Positions 6,051 to 47,908 of a stretch of DNA of 64,000 nt are shown in pieces. Source of the stretch: an uncultured Lachnospiraceae bacterium (GTDB taxonomy: Bacteria; Bacillota; Clostridia; Lachnospirales; Lachnospiraceae); NCBI GenBank assembly GCA_947591245.1, contig CANQCY010000001.1:1-64000 (forward strand), given 5' to 3'. Under the pieces are notes generated by a model. It did no database searches. It was not told the DNA's origin and was given only the letters and a program-made list of their open reading frames with translations. The position numbers and the translations under genes were made by a program. Positions within the stretch are counted from its first letter, which is position 1; each line of letters starts with the position of its first letter.

Positions 6051-8087
6051 ATGAGATTTGAAAATGATAACGGAGCGTTAGTTTGTTATAATAATGGGGA
6101 GATTTTGAGAATTGAAGCATGGGGTAAAGATTCTTTCAGGGTCAGAAGCGCTATGCTTGTGAAATTCACAGGCGATGACCGGGCTCTGACGGAGATTCCT
6201 GCCAAAACCAATACAACGGTAAAGATCGAATCAGAAGACCATTGGGTTGGCGATGGAACAATTGACAAACGGGAAACGGCGTCCATAGTCAATGGCAGAA
6301 TAAAAGCGGTAGTCAATTTTGCCGGTGTTATTTCATTTTATAAGGACGATAAACTTATTCTCCGCGAATATTTCCGCATGTATGATGGAACTATTTCCAA
6401 GAGCAGCCGTTGTTTAAAGATTATGAATCGCGAGTGGAAGGGTATCATCGGCGGTACGGATTTTTCGTTGAATGTTAAGTTTGATCCGAATCCGGGTGAA
6501 AAAATATTCGGGATGGGGCAGTATCAGCAGAATTGTTTGGATTTAAAGGGATGCGTGCTTGAGCTGGCGCAGCGCAATTCCCAGATTTCCGTACCTTTTG
6601 CGCTGTCTTCATTGGGATATGGATTTTTATGGAACAATCCGGCTGTCGGCCGTGTGACTTTTGGTAATAATTATACAGAGTGGATAGCCGCATCAACCCG
6701 TGAAATGGATTATTACATTACGGTAGCCGACACGCCAAAAGCTATTATTGATAATTATACGATGGCTACCGGACATGCAGATATGTTTCCGGAAGACTTA
6801 ATGGGGCTTTGGCAGTGCAAACTCCGGTACAGGACCCAGGATGAGGCGCTGGCAGTTGCGCGCCGGTATCAAAAGGAAGGCATTCAGCTTGATCAGATCG
6901 TTATTGATTTCTTTCATTGGACCGTTCAGGGAGATTGGAAGTTTGATGAAAAATATTGGCCGGATCCGAAGGCGATGGCAGATGAGCTTCACAGTATGGG
7001 AATAAAGGTCATGGTTTCAGTTTGGCCGTCTGTTGACAGAAGGAGCGAGAATTTTTGGCCGATGATGGAAAGAGGACTGCTAATCCGGACGGAACGAGGC
7101 GCTGCCCAGACTTATGATTATCAGGGCGATTGTGTCGAGATTGACGCGTTTAATCCGGAAGCGCGCAAGTATGTGTGGGAGGTATGCAGGAAAAATTATT
7201 ATGACTTGGGAATAGACGGTTTCTGGCTGGATAATTCAGAACCGGATTTTGGCGTATATGATTTTGAAAATTACAGATACTGCGATGGGCCGGCGCTCCA
7301 GATCAGCAACCTGTATCCTCAGATGTACAGCCGTGCGTTTTATGATGAAATGAGCAAAGGGGAGAAGCCGGTTGTTAATTTGTTGAGGTGCGCTTGGGCC
7401 GGGTCTCAAAAATATGGCAATGTTGTCTGGTCGGGAGACGTTCCTTCCACCTTTGAAGCTTTCGGGGAACAGCTTCAGTGCGGTTTGAATATGGGGCTTG
7501 CGGGCATTCCGTGGTGGACTACGGATATCGGAGGATTTATGACAGATGATGTCAATGATCCGGACTTCAGACAGTTATTGATCAGATGGTATCAGTTTGC
7601 GGCATATAGTGCGGTTATGCGTATGCATGGCGATAGAGGGCCTTTCAATATTCCTCCCTTGGATGACCGCGACTGGGGCGGCGGATACCTTCACACGGGA
7701 CAGCCAAATGAATTATGGAGTTATGGTGAAGAAAATTACAAAATAAAGAAGAAGTATTATGACATTCGCATCAGTATGCATGATTATATTACGAAATTAT
7801 TTGAAGAGGCCCATACAAACGGTTCTCCTTTAATCCGCACCATGTTTTATGAATTTCCTGCTGATCCGAAGTGCTGGGAACTCAAGGATCAGTATATGTT
7901 CGGTGAGAAGTATTTGGTGGCGCCGATTCTTCAGCTAAACCAATTTGAACGAGAGGTATATCTTCCGGAAGGGACGTGGACTCTTACATCAACGGGCGGG
8001 AAATTCGATGGCGGACAGACGGTTGCAGTCAGCGCTCCTATAGAATATATGCCCGTATTTGAGAAGGATAGCAGCGCAATCAATTAG
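6051..8087 (+). CDS. glycoside hydrolase family 31, alpha-xylosidase/alpha-glucosidase-like
   Basis: This 678-residue GH31 enzyme has the N-terminal beta-sandwich, a TIM barrel and a C-terminal beta domain. The nucleophile lies in DGFWLDNSEPD (Asp394) and the acid/base in VWSGDVPSTFEAF (Asp463). It has no signal peptide, so it probably acts on imported oligosaccharides in the cytoplasm. The segment with the nucleophile resembles alpha-xylosidase-like GH31 members more than maltase types, but specificity cannot be fixed by eye. GGAGG lies six bases before ATG 6051. It is followed after 25 nt by a second GH31 gene of different sequence, so the two presumably work on one substrate class. No transporter or regulator is adjacent. 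Confidence 0.92.
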   Translation: MRFENDNGALVCYNNGEILRIEAWGKDSFRVRSAMLVKFTGDDRALTEIPAKTNTTVKIESEDHWVGDGTIDKRETASIVNGRIKAVVNFAGVISFYKDDKLILREYFRMYDGTISKSSRCLKIMNREWKGIIGGTDFSLNVKFDPNPGEKIFGMGQYQQNCLDLKGCVLELAQRNSQISVPFALSSLGYGFLWNNPAVGRVTFGNNYTEWIAASTREMDYYITVADTPKAIIDNYTMATGHADMFPEDLMGLWQCKLRYRTQDEALAVARRYQKEGIQLDQIVIDFFHWTVQGDWKFDEKYWPDPKAMADELHSMGIKVMVSVWPSVDRRSENFWPMMERGLLIRTERGAAQTYDYQGDCVEIDAFNPEARKYVWEVCRKNYYDLGIDGFWLDNSEPDFGVYDFENYRYCDGPALQISNLYPQMYSRAFYDEMSKGEKPVVNLLRCAWAGSQKYGNVVWSGDVPSTFEAFGEQLQCGLNMGLAGIPWWTTDIGGFMTDDVNDPDFRQLLIRWYQFAAYSAVMRMHGDRGPFNIPPLDDRDWGGGYLHTGQPNELWSYGEENYKIKKKYYDIRISMHDYITKLFEEAHTNGSPLIRTMFYEFPADPKCWELKDQYMFGEKYLVAPILQLNQFEREVYLPEGTWTLTSTGGKFDGGQTVAVSAPIEYMPVFEKDSSAIN

Positions 8088-8112
8088 GAAAGGATGGTTA
8101 ATAACCGCACTT

Positions 8113-10431
8113 ATGAAAGACGTATATACATTTGCACAGGACGGAAACATATTGCGCCTTGCATTCTATAATAAAAAGACTGTTCACGTTACATATAGTA
8201 CGCATGAAGATCCGGAGCTTTTAACTCTGACAGATTTCAGAGAAGAACCGGATGGGATATCAGTGTCGCAAATGACCGATAGCGGCAGCGAATATCTTGT
8301 TGACACGGGATATTTAAGGATTCGGATTGACAAGGCGACTCTGAATGCCGTGTATGAGGATGATTCCGCAAAACGGCTTTCAGGCGTGTATGACAGGGCA
8401 TTCCAGGAATATAATATTTACCGTACCAGGGGCGGCAGCATTGAAACCCGCGAAACGGCTGACGGAGTCAGAAGCAGTTCTACCGGCGGCGAATCGGAAT
8501 TTGTGCGCACATCGCATCATGCGCATATGGCTGTTGGCTTCACAGAGGATGAATCGCTTTTCGGGCTCGGCAGCCATGAAGAGGGTTTTGCGAGCCTGAA
8601 AGGACAATATGTCCCATTATATCAGGAAAATATGCGCATTGCTATCCCTGTTTTCGTTTCCACGAAAGGGTACGCGTATGTCTTTAACTGCGCCTCCCTT
8701 ATGACATTTGACGCTGTTGATGAGAAGCGCGGCAAAATATATTTTGATTCAGTGGACGCAATAGACTATTATTTTATTGCGGGGGACGGATTTGATGATA
8801 TCTGCGGCGAGCTTCATGCGCTCTCCGGGGCGGCGCCTCTTTTGCCGAAATGGGCTCTCGGATATGTACAATCAAAAGAAAGGTATGCATCTGCGGATGA
8901 GCTTATCGATGTGGCGTCCGAGTACAGGCGCCGGAAAATTCCTCTTGACTGCATCGTGCAGGACTGGATGTATTGGGGTGAGAATATGTGGGGAGACAAG
9001 CATTTCGATCTGTCACGCTATCCTGATCCTCAAAAAATGACAGAATCGCTCCACGAGAAAAATGTCCGCCTCATGATTTCAATATGGCCGAATATGAGCG
9101 GCGATTCGCCTGATAAAAAGGAATTTGAAGAAGCCGGTTTGCTGCTTGATGATGGTTCGGTATATAATGCCTTTTCCAAGGATGGGCGCGCGCTGTATGC
9201 CAGGCAGGCATTTGACAATTTGTTCTCATACGGGGTTGACGGATGGTGGTGTGATTCCTCCGAACCGTATGATGCCGTATGGGGAGGCGCCGAGCGTCCG
9301 CCGCTGAAGGAGCGTATGGAAAAATCGGTAGGAGAATTTAAGAAATATTTGGACGACAGCGTTATCAATGCATATTCGCTCATGCACTCTAAGGGGATCT
9401 ATGAGGAGCAGCGGAAACGTACGGATAAGCGCGTTCTGAATCTCACGCGTTCGGGCTTCATTGGCCAGCACCGTTATGGGACGGTCGTATGGTCGGGAGA
9501 TGTGTCAGCGACATGGGAGACGCTGCGCCGTCATGTGCATATCGCGCAAAATTATATCGCCAGCGGCGAGGCATACTGGAACTCGGATATTGGCGCGTTC
9601 TTCGTCAAAGGCGGTCATGAATGGTTCAGAGCGGGAGATTATGATGATGGCGTTGACAATTTCGGATACAGAGAGCTTTATACGCGTTGGCTGCAATTTG
9701 CAGGCTTTACGCCGCTCATGCGATCTCATGGCACGGACGCTCCCCGCGAGATCTGGAGATTCGGCGAGATGGGTACAATGTTTTATGATGCGATAGAGGC
9801 AGCTATACGGCTAAGATACAAACTTATCCCATACTTCTATTCCGTGCATGCCGCCGTCACATTCAGAGGCGAAATGCCGATCCGTCCTCTGGCGCTCGAA
9901 TTCCCGAATGACGAAGGATCGCATCTTCACACGAATGAATATATGTATGGACATGAGCTCCTGATATGTCCCATTACAAAACCAATGTATTATGACACGG
10001 ACGGAAAAGAGATGAGAGGGAGCAATAGAACTGTTGAAATATACCTGCCTCCGTGCGGATGGTATGATCTCTACACAGAGCGATACTATGAGGGCGGCAG
10101 AACCATCACAATGGATATTGATCTTGGCAATATTCCTGTTTTCGTTCGGGCAGGCTCAATCATTCCCACGTCGGACGTTATGCAGTCTGCAAGCGAGATA
10201 CCGGATGCTCCGTATGAAGTTATCGTTTTTGGCGGCGAGGACGGTTCTTTCATGCTCTATGAGGATGCCGGAGACGGTTATGGATATGAAAACGGCGAAT
10301 TCGCCATGACAAGCATCTCATATGACGAGACATCCCATAAGATATCCGAGAAAGTATCAGGGTGGGAAACATTCAAGCATCCGCTGCGGTATCGTATCGT
10401 CAGCAAACGCCAAACCATCCGTCTGGCTTGA
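8113..10431 (+). CDS. glycoside hydrolase family 31, second member of the tandem pair
   Basis: A full GH31 barrel is present: IPLDCIVQDWMYWG for the substrate-binding strand, GVDGWWCDSSEP with nucleophile Asp381, and VVWSGDVSATWETL with acid/base Asp463. The product of about 772 residues lacks a signal peptide. ATG 8113 is the first convincing start; the in-frame TTG 8059 would overlap the previous gene. The AGGAAAGG at 8086-8093 is unusually far (about 19 nt) from this ATG, so the exact start is the least certain part of the call. The sequence clearly differs from the upstream GH31, so this is not a recent duplication. Confidence 0.9.
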   Translation: MKDVYTFAQDGNILRLAFYNKKTVHVTYSTHEDPELLTLTDFREEPDGISVSQMTDSGSEYLVDTGYLRIRIDKATLNAVYEDDSAKRLSGVYDRAFQEYNIYRTRGGSIETRETADGVRSSSTGGESEFVRTSHHAHMAVGFTEDESLFGLGSHEEGFASLKGQYVPLYQENMRIAIPVFVSTKGYAYVFNCASLMTFDAVDEKRGKIYFDSVDAIDYYFIAGDGFDDICGELHALSGAAPLLPKWALGYVQSKERYASADELIDVASEYRRRKIPLDCIVQDWMYWGENMWGDKHFDLSRYPDPQKMTESLHEKNVRLMISIWPNMSGDSPDKKEFEEAGLLLDDGSVYNAFSKDGRALYARQAFDNLFSYGVDGWWCDSSEPYDAVWGGAERPPLKERMEKSVGEFKKYLDDSVINAYSLMHSKGIYEEQRKRTDKRVLNLTRSGFIGQHRYGTVVWSGDVSATWETLRRHVHIAQNYIASGEAYWNSDIGAFFVKGGHEWFRAGDYDDGVDNFGYRELYTRWLQFAGFTPLMRSHGTDAPREIWRFGEMGTMFYDAIEAAIRLRYKLIPYFYSVHAAVTFRGEMPIRPLALEFPNDEGSHLHTNEYMYGHELLICPITKPMYYDTDGKEMRGSNRTVEIYLPPCGWYDLYTERYYEGGRTITMDIDLGNIPVFVRAGSIIPTSDVMQSASEIPDAPYEVIVFGGEDGSFMLYEDAGDGYGYENGEFAMTSISYDETSHKISEKVSGWETFKHPLRYRIVSKRQTIRLA

Positions 10432-10611
10432 ATCTACGATAGAAAGAATGTTTCTTTTCGGACATGGCACGGCGCACGCAGCCTGAGCCCGCAGCAGTTG
10501 AAGCGAGGAAAAAGAAGCAGAGCGCTAGCTCCGTCAAAGTAAATAGTGCAATAAATTTTCTAGAGTAGAATGTATTTCTGCAAAATGGCAAGGAGAAATT
10601 AAGATGAAAAA

Positions 10612-11250
10612 ATGTTTTCTTTGTTATTGATTTGTTGTATGCTTACATTGACTGCATGTGGCGTGTCAGAAGGCGTGAATGGCGAGCAACGCGCTGCTTC
10701 GCTGGAAACATCAGCGCCGGCGCCCAAGGCTGAGAAAGTAGTCTGGTGGGAAAAGATAGAAAATTTAGGATTGAGGGAAAAAAGCAGTATCCGGTTGGAG
10801 TCTGATGAGGATAATTTGGAATTAAAAATGATGATCGACCAGTGTGTGGTGGATTTAAGCCAGGAATCTCTTCAACATAATAATTATAACCTTACCAAAC
10901 TATTGAAAAAAGATTGGGATAGGGACGGAGTCATGGAGGTTTTTTTGCTGTTTTACGGAGGTTCAGGGGGAAGTTTTCAAGATTTCCGTATGATTAAATT
11001 TGATGGGCAGAAATGGAGAGCAATTCCCATGGACTGGGATAGTGAGGAAGGATTTCAAGTTGATGTGAAGCCGCTGGGGAATAGTTCTGTGCAGATTAAT
11101 ATTAAAGATATCGGATATGAAAAAATAGTACAGGTATCGGGCAATGCCTACTTGAAAAGAGAGGGAGAGAAAGCAAACGCAGATTCGGGATATCGCTTTT
11201 TCGGCCTGGTCCTTACGAACGCAGCCTATCCTGCAGATCAGACAGGATAG
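10612..11250 (+). CDS. putative lipoprotein with possible poly-A frameshift at its start
   Basis: From ATG 10612 the product begins MFSLLLICCMLTLTACG, a hydrophobic signal ending in the lipobox LTAC, followed by about 190 residues of secreted protein of unknown function with an acidic Asp-rich segment near 11000. The good ribosome site AGGAG (10590-10594) however fits ATG 10604, whose frame stops after eight codons. One extra A in the run of six after ATG 10604 would give MKKMFSLLL, an ideal lipoprotein signal. Either the gene is slightly broken, the run is variable, or ATG 10612 is used with a distant ribosome site. No relative was recognised. Confidence 0.6.
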   Translation: MFSLLLICCMLTLTACGVSEGVNGEQRAASLETSAPAPKAEKVVWWEKIENLGLREKSSIRLESDEDNLELKMMIDQCVVDLSQESLQHNNYNLTKLLKKDWDRDGVMEVFLLFYGGSGGSFQDFRMIKFDGQKWRAIPMDWDSEEGFQVDVKPLGNSSVQINIKDIGYEKIVQVSGNAYLKREGEKANADSGYRFFGLVLTNAAYPADQTG

Positions 11251-40196: not shown

Positions 40197-40225
40197 TTTA
40201 CAAATCTGCAAAAGGGTGATATGAT
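40197..40225 (+). promoter_or_regulatory. promoter of the Tad-like operon
   Basis: TTTACA at 40197-40202 and TATGAT at 40220-40225 have a 17-base spacer. Transcription would begin near 40232, after the ATG at 40221, which makes that ATG unusable and supports the TTG start at 40269. Confidence 0.7.
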
Positions 40226-40268
40226 AATTTCATTCCACCGAAAAAATGAAAAGGGGGGCATCGACAGA

Positions 40269-41180
40269 TTGAAAATTGCTTTTTGGAGCAATTCACCGGG
40301 GAAGTCAGGAGTTACAGGAAATCTATCCTGTATCAGTATAGTATCGGCCATGTACCAGCCGTCTGAGATGGTACTATTCGAGAATCATGTAAGCATCAAC
40401 AATCTAGGCAGTACGTTTCTAAATCAAAATTCCTATGACAGATTGCAGGAGAAAAATTCATATTTTGTAGAAAATGGGCTGGGGAGGATTTTAGGTTATT
40501 GTGATATGGGAAGCCTGGTAAATTCGGGTATGATATACCGATCGTGTCTTTCCATATTTAATCAGAGAGTGTTTTATCTGCCGGTCGGCGGCATGAATCA
40601 GGATCTGATGGAATACCGGTTAAAAAGGCATGCGGGAGCGGTTATGAATTTATTGCAGAAAGTGTATCCCGAAGTCTGTATTGATATATCTTCATCATCT
40701 TTGGAAAGTTCAAGAAAATTCTTAAAAGAAGCGGATCTGGTTGTGGTCAATCTTTGCCAGAACAATCAGCAGCTCTCTCATTTTTTCCGAAATTTTTCAG
40801 AAATTCAAGAAAAAGCTTTTTATGTGATAGGGAATTATGATCCGAAATCAGAGATTACAAAACATGACATAGTGAAACGATTTGGATTGCCGGGATATGC
40901 CGTGGGTACTATTCCGTATAACCGGAGATTTGCAGACGCGCTTACGAAAGGCGGGCTCATTCCTTTCTTGCTGCGGCATTACGACTGCGGGAAGGAAAAT
41001 GTAAACTATGACTTTATAAGCGCGGTAAAAGAGACAGTAAGCCTGTTTGGACAGGCAAAGGAAACAGTGAAACACAAGCTGGGACAGGAGGAGAAAGGCG
41101 GCGTAAGGGATGAGGGGAAAGAGAAAACTGATATGGACAGGGCTGGCGGTTCTGTTTTTCGCGGCGGCGATACGATATGA
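40269..41180 (+). CDS. TadZ/CpaE-like deviant P-loop protein
   Basis: TTG 40269 is preferred over ATG 40221 because AAGGGGGG (40251-40258) lies ten bases upstream, the promoter's start site lies after 40221, and the product then begins MKIAFWSNSPGKSGVTGNLS. That stretch is a variant of the MinD/ParA deviant Walker A loop. Later segments VCIDISSSS and ADLVVVNLCQN occupy the positions of switch II and the nucleotide-specificity strand. The divergent loop resembles the atypical TadZ proteins that place Tad pilus machines at a cell site. Its C-terminal 70 bases overlap the next gene. Confidence 0.6.
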   Translation: MKIAFWSNSPGKSGVTGNLSCISIVSAMYQPSEMVLFENHVSINNLGSTFLNQNSYDRLQEKNSYFVENGLGRILGYCDMGSLVNSGMIYRSCLSIFNQRVFYLPVGGMNQDLMEYRLKRHAGAVMNLLQKVYPEVCIDISSSSLESSRKFLKEADLVVVNLCQNNQQLSHFFRNFSEIQEKAFYVIGNYDPKSEITKHDIVKRFGLPGYAVGTIPYNRRFADALTKGGLIPFLLRHYDCGKENVNYDFISAVKETVSLFGQAKETVKHKLGQEEKGGVRDEGKEKTDMDRAGGSVFRGGDTI

Positions 41181-43740
41181 GCCGGCTGCGCCGGGCAAAG
41201 CGTCGCTGGCAGCAGCGGGAAAAAATGCGGGTACTCAGAGGGAGCTGGAACAGGCGTTAGAGGCGCCAGGGCAGGCGACGGTTCGCCTGCGGTCAGACAT
41301 TACCGTCAGTAAATGCCTGAAAGTCAAAGGGAGCAAGGTGCTAGACGGCGGAGGAAAATACCGGATTCGGAGAAAGTCTGCGTCCGGCGGTACGTATAAG
41401 GGAACCTTGTTTCAGATGCAGGGCAGCATGTTTAAGCTTAAGGACGTGACGGTGAGCGGAAGCGGGAAAAGCGTTTCTGTGAGCGGCGATATCAACGGAA
41501 AGCTGATCGAGATCGATTCGGGAACGGTAGTATTGGCGTCCGGGGCAAAGCTGACTGCCAATTATAACGCGTCCACCCTGACAGATGGCGGCGGCGGAAT
41601 CACAGTGCACGCTGGTGGAACGGCAGTGATGAAGGAAGGAAGCGCCATTCGGGACAATCTCACGATAACGGGGGGAAGCGGCGTCCGGGTCGAAGCGGGC
41701 GGCATGTTTATTATGGAAGGTGGAACCATAGCAGATAATGCCGTACTCGGTCAAAGAAGAGATACCGGCTTTGACGGAAGGGGCGGTGCGATACATAATC
41801 GGGGAATTGCGATTATTCAGGGCGGAACGATTGCGGAAAATGCGGCGGCTGGATATGAAACAGCCGGAGAAAGCTATGGCGGCTATGGCGGTGCAATTTA
41901 TAACCAGAGTACGCTTACGGTTACGGGCGGAACGATAAAAAACAATAAAGCTACGGCTGCCGGCGGTGCGGTTTATACGAATGAGAGCGGAACGGTCAGT
42001 ATGGAAGGCGGGAAAATCTGCAATAATTCTTCTCCGGGAAAGCGCGGCGGCGGTATTTATATTTCCGCAGCTTCGGCGTTTTGTATGGATGGCGGAACGA
42101 TTAGCGACAACATGGCGGAAGATGGCACGCAGATTTTTCTGTCAAGCACTTCATCCGGCACATTTACAATCCGGGACGGTACAGTGAGCGGGGGCGGAGA
42201 CGTCATTTATAATAACGGCGGAACGGTGTCTGTCATGGGCGGCTCGGTCAGAAGCCGGGAGTGCGCCCTGAAGACGAAAGGAAGCAGCGAGATCCGTGGC
42301 GGCGTTGTGCTGGGCGGCACATATGGCGTGAAATACGGAGGCGGCAATTTGTCCGTATCAGGAAAGCCGCATATCAATTCGGTATATCTTGCAGAAGGCC
42401 GGGTGATTCATGCGGATCGGAACGCCGGCTTTGATGTGCCGTGCGAATTGCGTCCGGCGCTTTATGACGAGGGAGTAAAGCTCGTGCACATCTCTTCCGG
42501 GCAGAAGGCGGAGGATGTGCGGAAATCCTTTTCCCTGAAAAAGAAAGGGCGGTTTATTTTGGAAACCCTCGACGACGGGCTGTATATCGAAAGGGAAAAA
42601 TACCGCGTTGTATTTGACGCGAATGGCGGTCAGGGGAATATGGATGAACAATGGGTATATGTAAATAAGGAGACGGCGCTGCGTGGGTGTACGTTCTGGA
42701 GAGAGGGTTACGCTTTTGTCGGATGGGCGACAAGCCGGACAGTGGTGAAAAAGCCGGAGGATATCATGTATCAGGAGAGGCAGCCGATAAAAAATCTGGC
42801 AGCTCACGGGAAGACGGTGCGGCTGTTTGCGCTGTGGGTGAAACGCCCTATTCTGACAAGCGAACATGACGGCCTTGTCTTTTATGAGGGCGAGCATGTG
42901 AACCGGGAGATTTTACTGCATGGGATGCGGGCGGCGGATGAGTGCGACGGAGACATCTCGGGGCAGATTGAGATCGCCAAAATTATTTTGCCGGACTCAT
43001 CAGAACGCATATTGCCGGATAAGCTTTCCACAAATAAAGCAGGGCTGGGGAAGGGTGAGATCATATATATGGTCACGGATTCTTTTGGTATAAGCGCTGA
43101 GTATCGGCAGATGTATGAGGTGGCGCCAAATAAAGAGCCGGAGCTCCGTGTGCGGGATCGGTATTTTTTTACGGGGGAGTACCCCGGCAGTTTAGATAGG
43201 CAGGCAGAGCGGGATATATTGTCTGATATATGCGTCAAAGATGATGTAGAGACAGAACGGCAGATGGAAACGAACAGGACGGTATTATGGGGAGGACTGA
43301 ATATAAGCAGGGAAGGGGAGTATAAAGTTACGGTCCGGGTGAAGGATCAGTACGGACACCGCTTTTATATGCAGGAGGGAGAAGAAAGGCAGTACGGATC
43401 AGGAAAAGTTTGCGAGAAGACGTTTATGGTGTATGTGGTAAATAAGGATAATGAGGATGCGCGGACGGGAAAGGACGGATTTGTGCGGTTTATAAGCGAA
43501 GAATACACGTATACGCTTCCGGACAATTCGATTTGGCGCACAGAGCCATATGCGAATGAGCTGAGCGACTCATTTCACAAAAGTGAAGACGAATACGAAG
43601 AGGTATGGAGCATTTCCGGTGAGGATAAAAAGAAGATAAAAGCGTTTGCCGGAGAAATGAGCGATCCTTTTTCGCAGGAGGCAAATGATTTGTTTTTAGA
43701 AAAATTTTCTTATCTGAGAGAAGAAAGGCAAGGTGGTTAA
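41110..43740 (+). CDS. large beta-helix surface protein with InlB-type repeat
   Basis: The 876-residue protein starts at ATG 41110 inside the preceding gene, with a signal peptide (about residues 1-35). Residues about 45-450 are parallel beta-helix repeats rich in GGTI..N and GGAIYN motifs, like polymorphic outer membrane and pectate-lyase-fold adhesins. An InlB B-repeat-like unit follows (about 498-580, VVFDANGGQGNMDEQW, FVGWATS), then cadherin/HYR-like beta domains (about 585-780). The C-terminus lacks LPxTG, SLH or a membrane helix. Its place inside a Tad-like operon suggests it is carried or exported by that machine. Confidence 0.7.
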   Translation: MRGKRKLIWTGLAVLFFAAAIRYEPAAPGKASLAAAGKNAGTQRELEQALEAPGQATVRLRSDITVSKCLKVKGSKVLDGGGKYRIRRKSASGGTYKGTLFQMQGSMFKLKDVTVSGSGKSVSVSGDINGKLIEIDSGTVVLASGAKLTANYNASTLTDGGGGITVHAGGTAVMKEGSAIRDNLTITGGSGVRVEAGGMFIMEGGTIADNAVLGQRRDTGFDGRGGAIHNRGIAIIQGGTIAENAAAGYETAGESYGGYGGAIYNQSTLTVTGGTIKNNKATAAGGAVYTNESGTVSMEGGKICNNSSPGKRGGGIYISAASAFCMDGGTISDNMAEDGTQIFLSSTSSGTFTIRDGTVSGGGDVIYNNGGTVSVMGGSVRSRECALKTKGSSEIRGGVVLGGTYGVKYGGGNLSVSGKPHINSVYLAEGRVIHADRNAGFDVPCELRPALYDEGVKLVHISSGQKAEDVRKSFSLKKKGRFILETLDDGLYIEREKYRVVFDANGGQGNMDEQWVYVNKETALRGCTFWREGYAFVGWATSRTVVKKPEDIMYQERQPIKNLAAHGKTVRLFALWVKRPILTSEHDGLVFYEGEHVNREILLHGMRAADECDGDISGQIEIAKIILPDSSERILPDKLSTNKAGLGKGEIIYMVTDSFGISAEYRQMYEVAPNKEPELRVRDRYFFTGEYPGSLDRQAERDILSDICVKDDVETERQMETNRTVLWGGLNISREGEYKVTVRVKDQYGHRFYMQEGEERQYGSGKVCEKTFMVYVVNKDNEDARTGKDGFVRFISEEYTYTLPDNSIWRTEPYANELSDSFHKSEDEYEEVWSISGEDKKKIKAFAGEMSDPFSQEANDLFLEKFSYLREERQGG

Positions 43741-43741
43741 T

Positions 43742-43930
43742 TTGACGGAATTTTTGCAGGAATATGGAAAAATTATAGTGGCAGTATTGGTTGTTCTGGC
43801 TCTGGTGGCGATCGTCCTTCTGTTTCGCGAACCGATCACAGAAATGTTTACGGGGTTATTCCGCAGTTTTTTTGCCAGCATGGGGGAGGAATCCGGGCTG
43901 ACGCTGCCGGAATTTAAGGGAGAGAAGTGA
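43742..43930 (+). CDS. pilin-like small membrane protein 1
   Basis: With TTG 43742 as start (AGGTGG five to six bases upstream) the 62-residue product begins MTEFLQEYGKIIVAVLV; an alternative GTG at 43733 adds three residues. One hydrophobic helix spans about residues 11-30, then an amphipathic segment and a hydrophilic end ...LPEFKGEK. Glu7-Tyr8-Gly9 recur in three other small proteins of this operon. The Glu-Tyr-Gly plus helix resembles the mature N-terminus of Flp pilins, but no cleavable leader is present. Confidence 0.6.
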   Translation: MTEFLQEYGKIIVAVLVVLALVAIVLLFREPITEMFTGLFRSFFASMGEESGLTLPEFKGEK

Positions 43931-43931
43931 G

Positions 43932-45020
43932 ATGGAGCAGTTTGAAAAAAAGTATTTGCTTAAGAGGCAGGATTACGGTTTGCTGTATCCTTATATCGTG
44001 TCAGAAGATGTAACGGATATTAATTGGAATGGAAGGCAGCTGTGGATCGACGATTTGAAAAAGGGAAGGTATCTGGCGGGGGAAGTGCTGACGGAAGAGT
44101 TTGTGGAGCGTTTTGCCTCTCTGATTTCCAGCGTGGTGAGCCTGTCGTTTAACAAGGTAAATCCGGTCCTAGAGGCGGAGACGGAAGAGCTTCGTATCAG
44201 TATCGTGCATGGCTGCGTGACAAGCGCCGGGATTACGATTTCCTTGAGAAAGATACCGGCTGTCAGACGGCTGAGCCGGGACAAAATGATTGCGGAAGGA
44301 TACTGCGGCAGCCAGGTGGCTGAATTTCTGGAAAATTGCATCCGCGTTCATTTAAATATTGCCATATGCGGTATGCCGGGAGCGGGAAAAACGGAGCTTT
44401 TAAAATATCTTACTACATTCATTCCGGATTCGGAACGGGTGATTACGATTGAAGATACGCTGGAAATCCATTATGGAAAAATCAATCCGAATAAAGACTG
44501 CGTGGAGATGAAGGTGGCGGAAAATTTCACATATACGGCGGCGATTAAGGCGTGCCTGCGCCAGCTGCCGCGGTGGATTATTTTGTCTGAAGCGAGATCC
44601 GAAGAGGTCAGATATTTGCTGGAATCGCTCAGCACGGGAACATACGGGCTGACAACGCTGCATACGGATGATGTCAGGAATATTCCGGATCGCATCAAGA
44701 ACATGGCTGGCGGTACGATGGACGCCGGGCGGATTTTAAATGACGCCTACCGTTTTATCAATATCGGAATTTTAGTTAAGAACACGGCGGGGGCGCACGG
44801 AAAGATCACAAGGCGAATCGAACAGATCTGCGCGTTTGACCGGAGCGGGGATAATTATCTGAAAAGCGAAAACAGGATGACTATTCTCGTGGATCAAGGT
44901 GAGCTTACAGGGGAGACGCTGCCCAAAAACTTGTGCCGGCGCTTTGCGGAAAGCGGCATTTCGTCCGTTTTTCTGCCGCGCGGCAGTACGGTTTTTGGCA
45001 AAAAAGCGGGAGATTATTAG
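43932..45020 (+). CDS. TadA/CpaF-type secretion ATPase
   Basis: This 362-residue T2SS/T4P-superfamily ATPase shows Walker A GMPGAGKT at residues 147-154, the Asp box ITIEDTLEIHY near 173, Walker B WIILSEARSEE near 215 and the His box GLTTLHTDD near 237. The consensus GE(V/A)RG before the second glutamate is SEARS here. The N-terminal domain is short. It should power assembly of a filament or secretion of a substrate from the cytoplasmic face. It starts one base after the pilin-like gene's stop, with AAGGGAG upstream. Confidence 0.9.
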   Translation: MEQFEKKYLLKRQDYGLLYPYIVSEDVTDINWNGRQLWIDDLKKGRYLAGEVLTEEFVERFASLISSVVSLSFNKVNPVLEAETEELRISIVHGCVTSAGITISLRKIPAVRRLSRDKMIAEGYCGSQVAEFLENCIRVHLNIAICGMPGAGKTELLKYLTTFIPDSERVITIEDTLEIHYGKINPNKDCVEMKVAENFTYTAAIKACLRQLPRWIILSEARSEEVRYLLESLSTGTYGLTTLHTDDVRNIPDRIKNMAGGTMDAGRILNDAYRFINIGILVKNTAGAHGKITRRIEQICAFDRSGDNYLKSENRMTILVDQGELTGETLPKNLCRRFAESGISSVFLPRGSTVFGKKAGDY

Positions 45021-45038
45021 AGAGGAATGGAGGAAAAT

Positions 45039-46355
45039 ATGAATAGGGTGAAACGGTCAGGGATGTATTTGGTTCTTCTTTTGCCTGTGTTTTTTTTGAC
45101 GCAGGTTTACGGACTGGGCAGGATATTTGCCATTCCCCTGTTTGCCGGATTTTGTCTGGCATTTAGAAAGCTTAAAAAGTACCGGGCGATGGATCGGGAA
45201 TATGAGGATATTTATTTGCAGGTCACGACATATCTTGAGCAGCTCGTCTGTTCATATCGGAGGCTTGGGCATGCGGGGAAGGCGCTGGAGGACTGCCGAA
45301 TTCTCTTTGATGAGGACAGCCGTATGGGGAATGCGATCGGAAGGGCAAGACATATTCTTTTGACTGGCGAGGGCGTTTTGGACGGCAATATATTATCTGC
45401 TGCGTTTGCTGAGCTGGAAATGCAGTTCGACAGCAGGAGGATGAGGATTATCCACCGCTTTATCTGTAATAGCGAAAGAACGGGAGCGGAGAGCGAGCGA
45501 TCCGCGGATATCCTGCTGGAGGATCTGGAGCTGTGGAAGAACCGGACGAAAATATATCAGAACAGAAAACGGTTTATAAAAATCGAGTGCGGCATCGCTA
45601 CGGCGCTCTCCCTTATGCTCTGCTACGTATCCAAGCTTTTGACGCCGCAGCAGATGGGATTTGATCTTTCGGACAGTTTGCTTTACCAGATCTCGACAGC
45701 GGGCGTTTTTCTTCTGTTTTTGTTTATCTTTGTCACGATATACAGAAAGATGTCAGGAAGCTGGCTTGACGGACGGGAGGAGTCGGAAGGAGCAGAGAGG
45801 GCGCGGAATGAACGGCTGTACCGTATCATAAGCGGAGAAAAAACGAAGGCTTCGGCGCTTACCCGCCATATGGCGAAAAGGATACTGGAGAGATACGTCA
45901 GGAACGAATTTCCGTACTGGCTTTTGCTCGTGACATTATATCTGCAGTCGGAGAGCAGCTATCAGGCGCTCCGCTATTCGATCGGAGAGACGGACGGGGC
46001 GTTCCGGATGGAATTGGAGCGTATGGTTGGGGAAATATACGATTTGCCCAGAAGTTTGGAGCCGTATCTTGGTTTTTTCGATGTTTTATCGATACCGGAG
46101 GTGCAGTCCGGAATGAAGATACTTTATTCCGTCAATGCCAACGGATATGAGGAATCGAAAAAGCAGCTGGATTTTCTTGTGGCGCAGAATAATCGGCTTA
46201 TGGATAAGAATGAGAGCTATCACCACTCCAATCTGATGGCGGGGATGTCTCTGCTCAAGCAGCTGCCAATGGTCGTCTCATGTTTTAAACTGCTGATCGA
46301 TCTGGTGAATTTGCTGGCGATTACGATGGGAAGCTTTCAGAATATGAATTTGTGA
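45039..46355 (+). CDS. TadB/TadC-like (GspF-type) inner-membrane platform protein
   Basis: ATG 45039 has GGAGG five bases upstream, better placed than for ATG 45027. The 438-residue protein has an N-terminal hydrophobic pair of helices, a soluble helical region (about 60-180), two membrane helices (about 190-245), another soluble part and a last hydrophobic stretch near 415-438. The helix-bundle, membrane, helix-bundle layout fits TadB/TadC or GspF proteins, although sequence motifs are weak. Only one such gene is present, whereas classical Tad loci have both tadB and tadC. Confidence 0.7.
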   Translation: MNRVKRSGMYLVLLLPVFFLTQVYGLGRIFAIPLFAGFCLAFRKLKKYRAMDREYEDIYLQVTTYLEQLVCSYRRLGHAGKALEDCRILFDEDSRMGNAIGRARHILLTGEGVLDGNILSAAFAELEMQFDSRRMRIIHRFICNSERTGAESERSADILLEDLELWKNRTKIYQNRKRFIKIECGIATALSLMLCYVSKLLTPQQMGFDLSDSLLYQISTAGVFLLFLFIFVTIYRKMSGSWLDGREESEGAERARNERLYRIISGEKTKASALTRHMAKRILERYVRNEFPYWLLLVTLYLQSESSYQALRYSIGETDGAFRMELERMVGEIYDLPRSLEPYLGFFDVLSIPEVQSGMKILYSVNANGYEESKKQLDFLVAQNNRLMDKNESYHHSNLMAGMSLLKQLPMVVSCFKLLIDLVNLLAITMGSFQNMNL

Positions 46356-46378
46356 CGGGTTGTCTGAATGGAGGGAGT

Positions 46379-46468
46379 ATGGAAGAGTTTGTGGAGGAAT
46401 TTGGAGAGGTGCTGGTAACGGTATTATTCGGCATGATAATCCTCTCAGTATTCGCACGTTTTTTGTAA
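46379..46468 (+). CDS. pilin-like micropeptide 2 (29 residues)
   Basis: ATG 46379 follows GGAGGG and encodes a 29-residue peptide beginning MEEFVEEFGEVLVTVLFG and ending ARFL. It is one acidic head with Glu7-Phe8-Gly9 and one hydrophobic helix, nothing more. The same head pattern in neighbouring proteins and the good ribosome site argue that it is translated. Confidence 0.55.
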   Translation: MEEFVEEFGEVLVTVLFGMIILSVFARFL

Positions 46469-46538
46469 ATAAGAGAGATTGAATTATGCGCAATAAAGCA
46501 AAGGCGGACGCAGTTCGCCTTGCAGAAATGAGGGAAAA

Positions 46539-46679
46539 ATGAATGAATTGATTCGGGAGTACGGAAAAACCGTTTTGTACGCAATAACGGGCGCGCTTGC
46601 CGTAGGACTGTTAGTTTATGCGTGTACGTGCATAGCGGCGTATATGGAATTTTTTGCAGACCGGCTTATGGGGGGATGA
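46539..46679 (+). CDS. pilin-like small protein 3 (46 residues)
   Basis: ATG 46539, behind GAGGG, encodes MNELIREYGKTVLYAITGA, then a hydrophobic helix to about residue 34 and a short tail ending DRLMGG. Glu7-Tyr8-Gly9 match the other small proteins of the operon. The next gene begins four bases after its stop codon. Confidence 0.58.
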   Translation: MNELIREYGKTVLYAITGALAVGLLVYACTCIAAYMEFFADRLMGG

Positions 46680-46682
46680 GAA

Positions 46683-47090
46683 GTGAGATTGTTTATTTAT
46701 GAATACGGGAATGTATTATTGGGCGTTTTGTTTGCGGCGCTTATTCTGACTGTTGTGTTTTCCGGCTTTATGAAAAAATGGCAGGAGTTTGGCGGCGTAG
46801 GCGACAGCGTCAAGACGGATTTTCTGACAGACGAGGAAAAGCGCATGCCGCCGTTGCTGAAGGCATGTGATTTCAAAATCCGCGAAGGGGATCCGCTGAA
46901 TGCAAAAGAGCATGTGTCGGCGTCCGATTTTGACGGGCGCGATATATCCGACCGGATTCAGATGAAATGCGTGAGAGAGAAGCCGGGGCTTTTGCGGTAT
47001 GAGCTGCAGGTGGAGAGTCCGGTGACAGGCAAGGTGGCGCGAGGGAGGATGACTGTCTTGATTGACTGCCCTGCGGGAGGTGGAGTTTGA
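46683..47090 (+). CDS. pilin-like protein 4 with soluble domain
   Basis: GTG 46683 (GGGGGA upstream) starts a 135-residue protein opening MRLFIYEYGNVLLGVLFAA, the same Glu7-Tyr8-Gly9 head and helix as its small neighbours. Residues about 35-135 form a charged soluble domain without recognised relatives. The architecture of one N-terminal helix with a globular end is that of a minor pilin or pseudopilin. Confidence 0.6.
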   Translation: MRLFIYEYGNVLLGVLFAALILTVVFSGFMKKWQEFGGVGDSVKTDFLTDEEKRMPPLLKACDFKIREGDPLNAKEHVSASDFDGRDISDRIQMKCVREKPGLLRYELQVESPVTGKVARGRMTVLIDCPAGGGV

Positions 47091-47417
47091 ATGAGAGTCA
47101 TTATAGAACATTTTATTACATTTTTGCTGCTGCTTATTTTTATATGGATCGGCATTGCCTATATTATCCAGAATGTACTGTATTCCAGTGCGAGAGAGTT
47201 CCACGGCGCTGTTGTAACACAGCTGGAAAACAGCTATTTTGATGAGGCGGTGATGGAGGATTGCAGACGGAAAGCGGAGCGGGCGGGATATGATCTGGAC
47301 ATTCGGATTTATGGAAGCGGAAACGAAAAAGATGCCAAAGTATCCCTCGTGTTCCGGTATGTTATTCCGCTTTGCGGCATTGAAAAAACTTATGAAATAG
47401 AGGGCTATTCGAGATGA
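47091..47417 (+). CDS. single-pass membrane protein, possible TadE-like pseudopilin
   Basis: ATG 47091 directly abuts the previous stop codon. The 108 residues begin MRVIIEHFITFLLLLIFIW, with one hydrophobic helix (about 8-29) and a soluble region ending in IPLCGIEKTYEIEGYSR. The head has Glu6 and Phe8 rather than the exact Glu-Tyr-Gly pattern. Position and topology suggest a TadE/TadF counterpart, but sequence similarity is too weak to assert it. Confidence 0.55.
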   Translation: MRVIIEHFITFLLLLIFIWIGIAYIIQNVLYSSAREFHGAVVTQLENSYFDEAVMEDCRRKAERAGYDLDIRIYGSGNEKDAKVSLVFRYVIPLCGIEKTYEIEGYSR

Positions 47418-47806
47418 AATCAATTGTATTATCGGCGATATGCATTAGTGCGGTGCTGCTTGTTCTGGCAATCCAATCCAAAATAAACGGAATGGCATAC
47501 TGCTCCCATGAATTGGAAGAGGCGTTGTCCGTTTCGGTGTCGCAGACGCTTAAGGAAGTATTAGAACAGGACAGCTATGGAATTCATGAAAAAAATGAGT
47601 TTATCGCTGCTTTTTTACAGGCTTTAGTTATGAGAACAAATTCGGATGCGGATATGAAAGTGTCGGTGATTTCAGCGGACATGGAAAAGGGATTGTTAGA
47701 TATAGAGGTGAGGGAGCGGTTATCGGGAGAAAAAGAATCGGCTCTCCCGGAAAAAGATCGCGAGATCGTCGTCAGGAGAACCGTTATTTACGCAAAAGAA
47801 AAGTAA
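47414..47806 (+). CDS. single-pass membrane protein at the operon's end
   Basis: The start overlaps the previous stop as ATGA. The 130-residue protein has one N-terminal helix (about 3-22, MKSIVLSAICISAVLLVLA) and a soluble domain of about 105 residues ending RRTVIYAKEK. It resembles pseudopilins in topology only, and no family was recognised. A hairpin terminator follows. Confidence 0.55.
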   Translation: MKSIVLSAICISAVLLVLAIQSKINGMAYCSHELEEALSVSVSQTLKEVLEQDSYGIHEKNEFIAAFLQALVMRTNSDADMKVSVISADMEKGLLDIEVRERLSGEKESALPEKDREIVVRRTVIYAKEK

Positions 47807-47873
47807 GGATATTCCTGTGCTTTTACAAGACTATCTAAAGCGTGCCATGCCAACTTCGCCGGCTATGGAACCA

Positions 47874-47908
47874 GAGCAGTCTCGCGAAGCGCGACGCTCG
47901 GGGTTTTT
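47874..47908 (+). terminator. intrinsic terminator of the Tad-like operon
   Basis: GAGC (47874-47877) and TCGCG (47882-47886) pair with CGCGA (47890-47894) and GCTC (47896-47899), followed by GGGG and TTTTT. It lies just before the convergent CNNM gene's stop. Confidence 0.65.

Follow-up and report, generated by a model that had tools for sequence, protein, structure and literature searches.

What kind of machine does a tightly packed run of ten genes encode in an uncultured Lachnospiraceae bacterium, and how close is it to a Tad pilus? We analyzed a stretch of 64,000 nucleotides from one contig of this organism, referred to below as the window. The run occupies positions 40269–47806 of the + strand and consists of a gene for a TadZ-like protein, a gene for a large protein, S1, an ATPase gene, a platform gene and S2 to S6. 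A first-pass annotation, made from the letters alone, had read the region as a compact Tad-like operon. All genes that it named are present and nearly contiguous or overlapping, with intergenic spacings between -71 and +70 nt. It had also claimed six small single-helix products, and exactly six were found (62, 29, 46, 135, 108 and 130 aa for S1 to S6). The features are as follows.

40197..40225, + strand: promoter-like site, TTTACA-17-TATGAT with TG before the second hexamer, then a conserved ATTCCAC block
40269..41180, + strand: TadZ-like protein, 303 aa, TTG start; MinD/ParA-type with a deviant P-loop, SNSPGKSGVTGN, by eye
41110..43740, + strand: large secreted surface protein, beta-helix-like by eye, with one List_Bact repeat and a C-terminal TAIL
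43393..43719, + strand: TAIL, the C-terminal module of about 110 residues of the large protein, common to the large surface proteins of these operons
43742..43930, + strand: S1, Flp-like small protein, 62 aa, MTEFLQEYGK...; TTG start most likely, alternative GTG at 43733
43932..45020, + strand: CpaF/TadA-type secretion ATPase, 362 aa, from PF00437, HHalign and tree
45027..46355, + strand: single membrane platform, 442 aa, N-terminal half TadB-like by profile comparison
46379..46468, + strand: S2, single-helix protein, 29 aa, MEEFVEEFGE...
46539..46679, + strand: S3, single-helix protein, 46 aa, MNELIREYGK...
46683..47090, + strand: S4, 135 aa, MRLFIYEYGN..., a helix and a C-terminal domain without a Pfam match
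47091..47417, + strand: S5, 108 aa, a helix and a small conserved domain
47414..47806, + strand: S6, 130 aa, of a family related to DUF5411
47874..47905, + strand: possible terminator hairpin, with a fold at about 47874–47899, then a T run, GGGGTTTTTG

The operon had been described as bracketed by a promoter and a terminal hairpin, and this was borne out in part. The stretch with the second hexamer and the ATTCCAC block is kept 5′ of 12 of the 13 copies of the TadZ-like gene (that of L116 differs), which supports a real control region. On the other side, promoter-like matches in the region are not above chance, with 13 found against 11.2 ± 3.5 in shuffled sequences. Positions 47806–47925 fold no better than shuffles (z = -0.90) and the hairpin does not appear in the output of the terminator scan; as a terminator it is plausible but unremarkable. 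The block (C)CATTCCACC lies after the second promoter hexamer, at 40220–40245, and in the same place in L015 and others, 5′ of the TadZ-like gene; it is a possible control element. The ATG at 40221 falls inside the promoter-like site. In 10 of 12 homologues an in-frame stop lies just 5′ of the equivalent of the TTG at 40269, and a purine-rich ribosome site precedes it. Therefore, TTG 40269 is more likely than ATG 40221 to be the start of the first gene. For the survey of related loci described below, gene starts were chosen by our own start-choice script, with ad hoc hydrophobicity cut-offs.

The ATPase carries the T2SSE domain PF00437 in Pfam. When its profile was compared by HHalign with eight canonical Tad families, canonical TadA was the counterpart with 99.6% probability, the canonical row having been removed from the profile. 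A PDB search with the 13-row profile (A1), one row of which is a canonical TadA, returned CpaF as the best match (3.8e-64), about 72 bits above VirB11. We then placed 50 of the 52 ATPases of the system at hand, leaving out two shorter than 295 aa, in a tree of 70 sequences that contained no VirB11. They form one clade (support 0.94) that is sister to all 10 canonical TadA sequences (0.999) and lies apart from PilB, PilT and a PilT-like family. Thus, the claim of a TadA/CpaF-type ATPase is upheld by profile comparison and tree, although in NCBIfam the highest score goes to VirB11 (121.6 bits), with TrbB ranking after it; the TadA-family model reaches 104.6 bits, and neither VirB11 nor this model passes its cut-off.

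The platform is encoded by one gene, where a Tad system has both TadB and TadC. The first-pass annotation had called it TadB/C-like, and this was right as to the single gene and the N-terminal half, which aligns with canonical TadB in HHalign (55%, E = 1.2e-4). The C-terminal half showed no link to TadC (2.2%), and the two halves gave no convincing alignment with each other (1.7%). In the alignment of 36 of the 52 platforms at hand (A8), T2SSF was the only family that matched several members (5 of 36, best E = 1.2e-4); the window's own member did not match it. A PDB search with the platform profile returned nothing useful.

The TadZ identity of the first gene product was not supported. Its profile, from an alignment with rows picked by hand (A12), has no similarity to canonical TadZ of related genomes (0.1% in HHalign) and found nothing useful in the PDB; the protein matches BcsQ with an E-value of only 0.0014. 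Of the 51 loci, 13 have a recognizable copy of the gene, which marks it as an accessory of one clade.

To see whether the genes belong together, we surveyed the gene order in other genomes. A scan with the ATPase identified 11 relatives, assigned to Lachnospiraceae, Roseburia, Eubacterium, Eubacteriaceae and uncultured Clostridia. By tblastn, 10 of them keep the gene order of the window for the TadZ-like gene (cut in one of them), the genes of the large protein, ATPase and platform, S5 and S6, and the eleventh, L025, has a core in another order. Because these six genes occur together in 10 relatives, the gene set is not a product of chance. The tblastn comparison detected S3 in L015 alone; for S1 it gave L015 and a weak match in L025. 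Forty further loci brought the survey to 51, over which the usual core consists of ATPase, platform, S2, S3, S4, S5, S6 and a large secreted protein. The small proteins are thus conserved with the ATPase across genomes, as the first-pass annotation had expected of a real machine, and the ATPase groups next to TadA rather than with DNA-uptake systems.

The platform profile A2 matches 52 of 396 sampled Lachnospiraceae genomes, in 42 of 280 genera. A class-wide search with the platform profile A8 matched 5 of 393 genomes, namely the window's own, a congener, L135, L136 and L137. L135 and L136 come from genomes of other families in the class, carry the full core and both have prepilin peptidase (A24) matches; L137 (genome G689) was rejected as a case, being an ordinary Tad locus. 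The L136 operon (6301–10800, reverse strand, genome G685) is collinear with those of L098, L099 and L120, which come from two Lachnospiraceae genera, at 77–78% DNA identity over about 4.3–4.4 kb. Such identity across families suggests horizontal transfer.

S1 to S4 share an N-terminus, M-x5-E-[YF]-G counted from the start codon, with a membrane helix directly after it. A wider form of this signature, M-x5-[EDQK]-[YFH]-[GAS] followed by a helix in a protein of at least 28 aa, picks out exactly four open reading frames on both strands of the 64-kb window, and these are S1 to S4. Over the 51 loci, counted on the operon strand with alternative starts included, 131 such frames occur in 263 kb of operon sequence and 6 in 511 kb of flanking sequence. 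Collapsed by stop codon, the signature proteins number 134, from 45 of the 51 loci and the window (46 operons), or about three recognised per operon; counts at their residues 7–9 are conditional on the motif by which they were collected.

Among the small proteins, a sequence relation to Flp was found for S1 only. Compared by HHalign with local canonical families, S1 matches Flp (84.6%, E = 6.9e-6) and the seven other canonical Tad families at 0.4% or less. It matches Pfam PF16982 with an E-value of 5.2e-05, below the curated cut-off. Of the 33 S1 sequences, 7 match PF16982 when E-values up to 1 are admitted, and none of these matches reaches that cut-off. On single S1 sequences the best Flp-family values are 1.1e-5 for Flp1_like and 0.01 for Flp_Fap, and unrelated membrane families match nearly as well (for example FAM210A/B, best 0.0029). 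The S1 profile (A6) has 33 rows, made up of 29 motif matches, the window's sequence and three sequences added by eye. Among 177,635 PDB sequences, its top two matches are the Tad pilins 8u1k (E = 0.034) and 8u2b (0.21), which are weak and not significant alone. Taken together, these comparisons make S1 Flp-like by sequence. In 31 of the 51 loci S1 was recognised 5′ of the ATPase, 29 times by script and twice by eye. Nine of the ten whole-operon relatives (L016–L024) have no S1 at this place and keep the rest of the operon; S1 may therefore not be the main subunit in every operon.

S4, S5 and S6 were also tried as canonical Tad parts by profile comparison, and no link was found; against TadE and TadF, the S5 and S6 profiles reached at most 2.3%. 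Those profiles were built from 31 S5 (A9) and 25 S6 sequences (A10), taken from the 49 of each recognised in the loci plus the window's. Seven of the 25 S6 members match PF17424 (DUF5411), which the window's S6 does not, and three of the 25 carry List_Bact repeats. In L094 (2342–5107, reverse strand) an S6-like protein of 921 aa looks as if a subunit and an adhesin had been fused.

The large protein varies from operon to operon. By Pfam, List_Bact repeats occur in that of the window and of L108, and Beta_helix (PF13229) together with ChW in those of L097 and L102; the window's protein has no match to PF13229. What the large proteins have in common is the TAIL, about 110 residues with the pattern RFIxxEY...SxW...WxF..., found in 36 of the 51 loci, some of the others ending inside the large-protein gene, and in the window, always on one protein per locus. 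Among the 396 sampled genomes, 46 carry a TAIL, at one to three matches per genome. They include 44 of the 52 platform-positive genomes and 2 of the 344 platform-negative ones (Fisher p = 1e-47). Because the rows of the TAIL profile (A11, picked by hand) are proteins linked to operons, the count among the positives is inflated, but the near absence in the other genomes does not stem from this. The two exceptions, with no platform at E 0.01, are G305, where the TAIL lies on a 4.5-kb contig fragment, and G373, where it belongs to a protein of 992 aa and the 16 kb examined contain no recognizable gene of the operon. A PDB search with the TAIL profile gave nothing useful. Stand-alone TAIL genes at L141 3588–6803 and L142 2150–5911 share the same housekeeping neighborhood in two genomes of one genus, both operon-positive.

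In genome G267 neither S6 nor TAIL was found in the operon, but an S6–TAIL pair, with modest matches of 27–29 bits, lies on the same contig at a distance of 1.26 Mb. Because of this pair and of the TAIL proteins encoded away from the operon, we regard the TAIL as an address for the machine and S6 as its likely partner; the TAIL probably docks on the machine via S6. By eye, the N-terminus of the large protein carries an export-type sequence of its own, so that the protein need not be exported by this machine, and its C-terminal module suggests docking instead. Of the two functions first proposed, assembly of a filament or export of the beta-helix protein, we favor the former.

We propose, with a probability of about 0.55, that the operon encodes a Tad-derived surface-filament machine that displays large TAIL-tagged adhesins and is probably built from leaderless subunits. 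The CpaF-like ATPase would drive the one membrane platform, and the platform would stack the tiny Flp-like subunits into a filament, short and thin, that crosses the single membrane. Where present, S1 would probably be the main subunit and S2 to S4 minor ones, with S4 to S6 outermost and exposing their small outer domains. The large protein would be exported by its own signal sequence (Sec) and would dock through the TAIL, probably via S6. The filament could thereby carry a beta-helix, InlB-like or other adhesin and may serve attachment in the gut.

The word leaderless needs closer argument, since the removal of a leader by a dedicated peptidase is what defines the subunits of type IV filaments (PMC10191384). 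The canonical site, [GA]-x4-E with hydrophobic residues after it, is present in 5 of the 134 signature proteins, compared with 9 of 9 canonical Flps. It is found in none of 31 S5, 25 S6 and 12 S4 sequences, and in 6 of 9 TadE and 5 of 9 TadF, some of which have misplaced starts. The E-Y of unprocessed S1 stands at residues 7–8, and the two available pilin registers place it differently. In the register of the solved Tad pilins, EYG at residues 7–9 of S1 falls on EYG 5–7 of the mature pilin, so that it is the mature motif with just Met and one residue ahead. Because EYG equals the mature E5-Y6-G with two extra residues in this register, S1 to S4 are probably made without a cleavable leader. In the register of PF16982 and of the HHalign alignment to local Flp, the N-terminus of S1 lies on the Flp leader, with G9 at or next to the cleavage site and, in the PF16982 register, at the canonical -1 position. 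We ourselves read EYG first as the mature Flp motif and then as a degenerate leader, and there is support for both registers.

The second register leads to the closest competitor, the same machine with ordinary processing. Residues 1–9 (MKxFxEEYG) would be a very short class III leader, cut after G9 in trans by the peptidase of the cell's canonical Tad or T4a system, with just the Glu at +5 lost. We take this possibility seriously while rating it somewhat below even odds. Residue 9 fits well, being G or A in 126 of the 134 signature proteins and G in 121, the best-kept residue of this motif-selected set; leaders are described as having Gly or Ala as their last residue without exception, whereas Glu5 is frequent and not universal (PMC10191384). 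The new N-terminus, residue 10, fits less well, since 44 of the 134 have a charged residue there and 6 a proline, and the solved-pilin register makes EYG a mature motif rather than the end of a leader. As claimed at the outset, there is no prepilin peptidase in the window; the three A24 matches of its own genome sit on other contigs. All 51 other platform-positive family genomes have A24 somewhere, and the MSH systems provide a published case of loci without a peptidase of their own (PMC6668835). However, 394 of the 396 family genomes have A24 and the two without it are not platform-positive, so co-occurrence, which we tried as a measure of A24 dependence, gave no discrimination and cannot decide the matter. 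A24 and platform share a contig in only 5 of the 51 positives, more than 800 kb apart, a distance that holds within contigs only, many of the genomes being fragmented. Four positives have a single A24; in three of them a T2SSE gene with a score like that of canonical TadA (186–198 bits) is no more than about 6 kb away, and in the fourth, G180, the A24 is on a contig of 6.6 kb. The window's own genome has what appears to be a conventional Tad locus split between L011 665–4089 and L012 544–4501, with A24 on both and a gene that looks flagellin-like by eye next to it (L011 5054–6472).

Two further readings concern function rather than processing. In one, the subunits form a short type II-like pseudopilus that acts as a secretion piston, with TAIL proteins exported or released through the thick wall and the TAIL as secretion signal. 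An address tag of that kind would also track the platform across genomes and occur on proteins encoded elsewhere, as the TAIL does. Miller et al. (2022; PMC9523054) labelled the operon secretion-related, and such small subunits could perhaps form only a short filament. We nevertheless judge the piston unlikely. A secretion signal sits uneasily with a single TAIL protein per locus and one to three per genome; the surface-type List_Bact repeats in 3 of 25 S6 fit display better than export; and Sec already exports the large protein in a single-membrane cell. The other reading, a DNA-uptake or conjugation apparatus, draws on the NCBIfam ranking of the ATPase, with VirB11 and then TrbB in front. 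We consider it highly improbable, because the ATPase clade is sister to TadA in the tree without VirB11, CpaF outscores VirB11 in the PDB search with a profile that has one canonical TadA row, and the other nine products have no relaxase or DNA-channel match in Pfam or NCBIfam.

Our preferred reading, the adhesin-displaying filament, can now be set against known systems. With the Tad/Flp pilus (TadA, B, C, V, Z, Flp, TadE/F) the operon shares a TadA-type ATPase, a TadB-like platform half, dense packing and a small Flp-like subunit whose helix is preceded by an E-Y motif. It departs from that pilus in its single platform gene and in the lack of a peptidase gene within the operon, of a profile match to TadZ or TadE/F and of an RcpC-type match in Pfam. 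Further differences are the presence of several tiny paralogous subunits, the near absence of canonical leader sites and an ATPase clade of its own. We do not file it as a Tad system, because a second platform protein, TadZ and TadE/F were looked for and none was recognised. A generic filament system is described by Denise et al. (2019; PMC6668835) as requiring an ATPase, a platform and a major pilin. Here the ATPase is clear, the platform match is weak (T2SSF in 5 of 36) and the pilin is Flp-like with a putative leader. The MSH pilus, treated in the same work, resembles the present system in its locus without a prepilin peptidase, but belongs to the T4aP/T2SS side of the superfamily, whereas the present ATPase goes with TadA (PMC6668835). 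Imam et al. (2011; PMC3244431) describe Gram-positive tad-like loci with no product bearing a prepilin signal motif. Those loci keep tadV, tadZ and rcpC, none of which was recognised in this operon by the profile searches, and the likeness to them is one of description.

The operon itself was almost certainly predicted before. Miller et al. (2022; PMC9523054), as far as the available text shows, predicted a secretion-related operon, as yet uncharacterised, that occurs in Roseburia, Ruminococcus and Eubacterium and comprises eight to nine genes, among them a CpaF ATPase, a PilC/GspF-type membrane protein, a DUF5411 protein and an InlB-like large protein. We equate the two because S6 relatives match DUF5411. 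In the same text those authors found no significant pilus resemblance in the other genes, gave them no role and proposed no mechanism. New in relation to that part of their report are the Flp-like S1, the shared EYG signature, the rarity of prepilin sites, and the TAIL module with its co-occurrence. The titles and abstract openings on leaderless pilins and on Tad pili of Lachnospiraceae that we retrieved did not concern this machine.

More broadly, and tentatively, at somewhat below even odds, we suggest that the operon represents a branch of the type IV filament superfamily, widespread in gut bacteria, with leaderless pilins that has dispensed with the prepilin peptidase, fused its platform and made its adhesins interchangeable by means of a C-terminal docking tag. 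If this is true, the leader-cutting step can be bypassed or radically relaxed, which would explain why leader-based pilin finders could miss such systems. Gut commensals would also gain a named surface organelle, and the TAIL would allow its adhesins to be listed from any genome.

The relatives contain another compact set, in which a T2SSF-type platform and a PilT-like ATPase accompany three to four small single-helix proteins, at L143 3056–6703, L144 3279–7108, L145 3054–6822 (reverse strand) and L146 2795–6561. By eye, its small proteins have no clear G-x4-E prepilin site. In Pfam, the L143 set matches T2SSF, DUF4860 and T2SSE.
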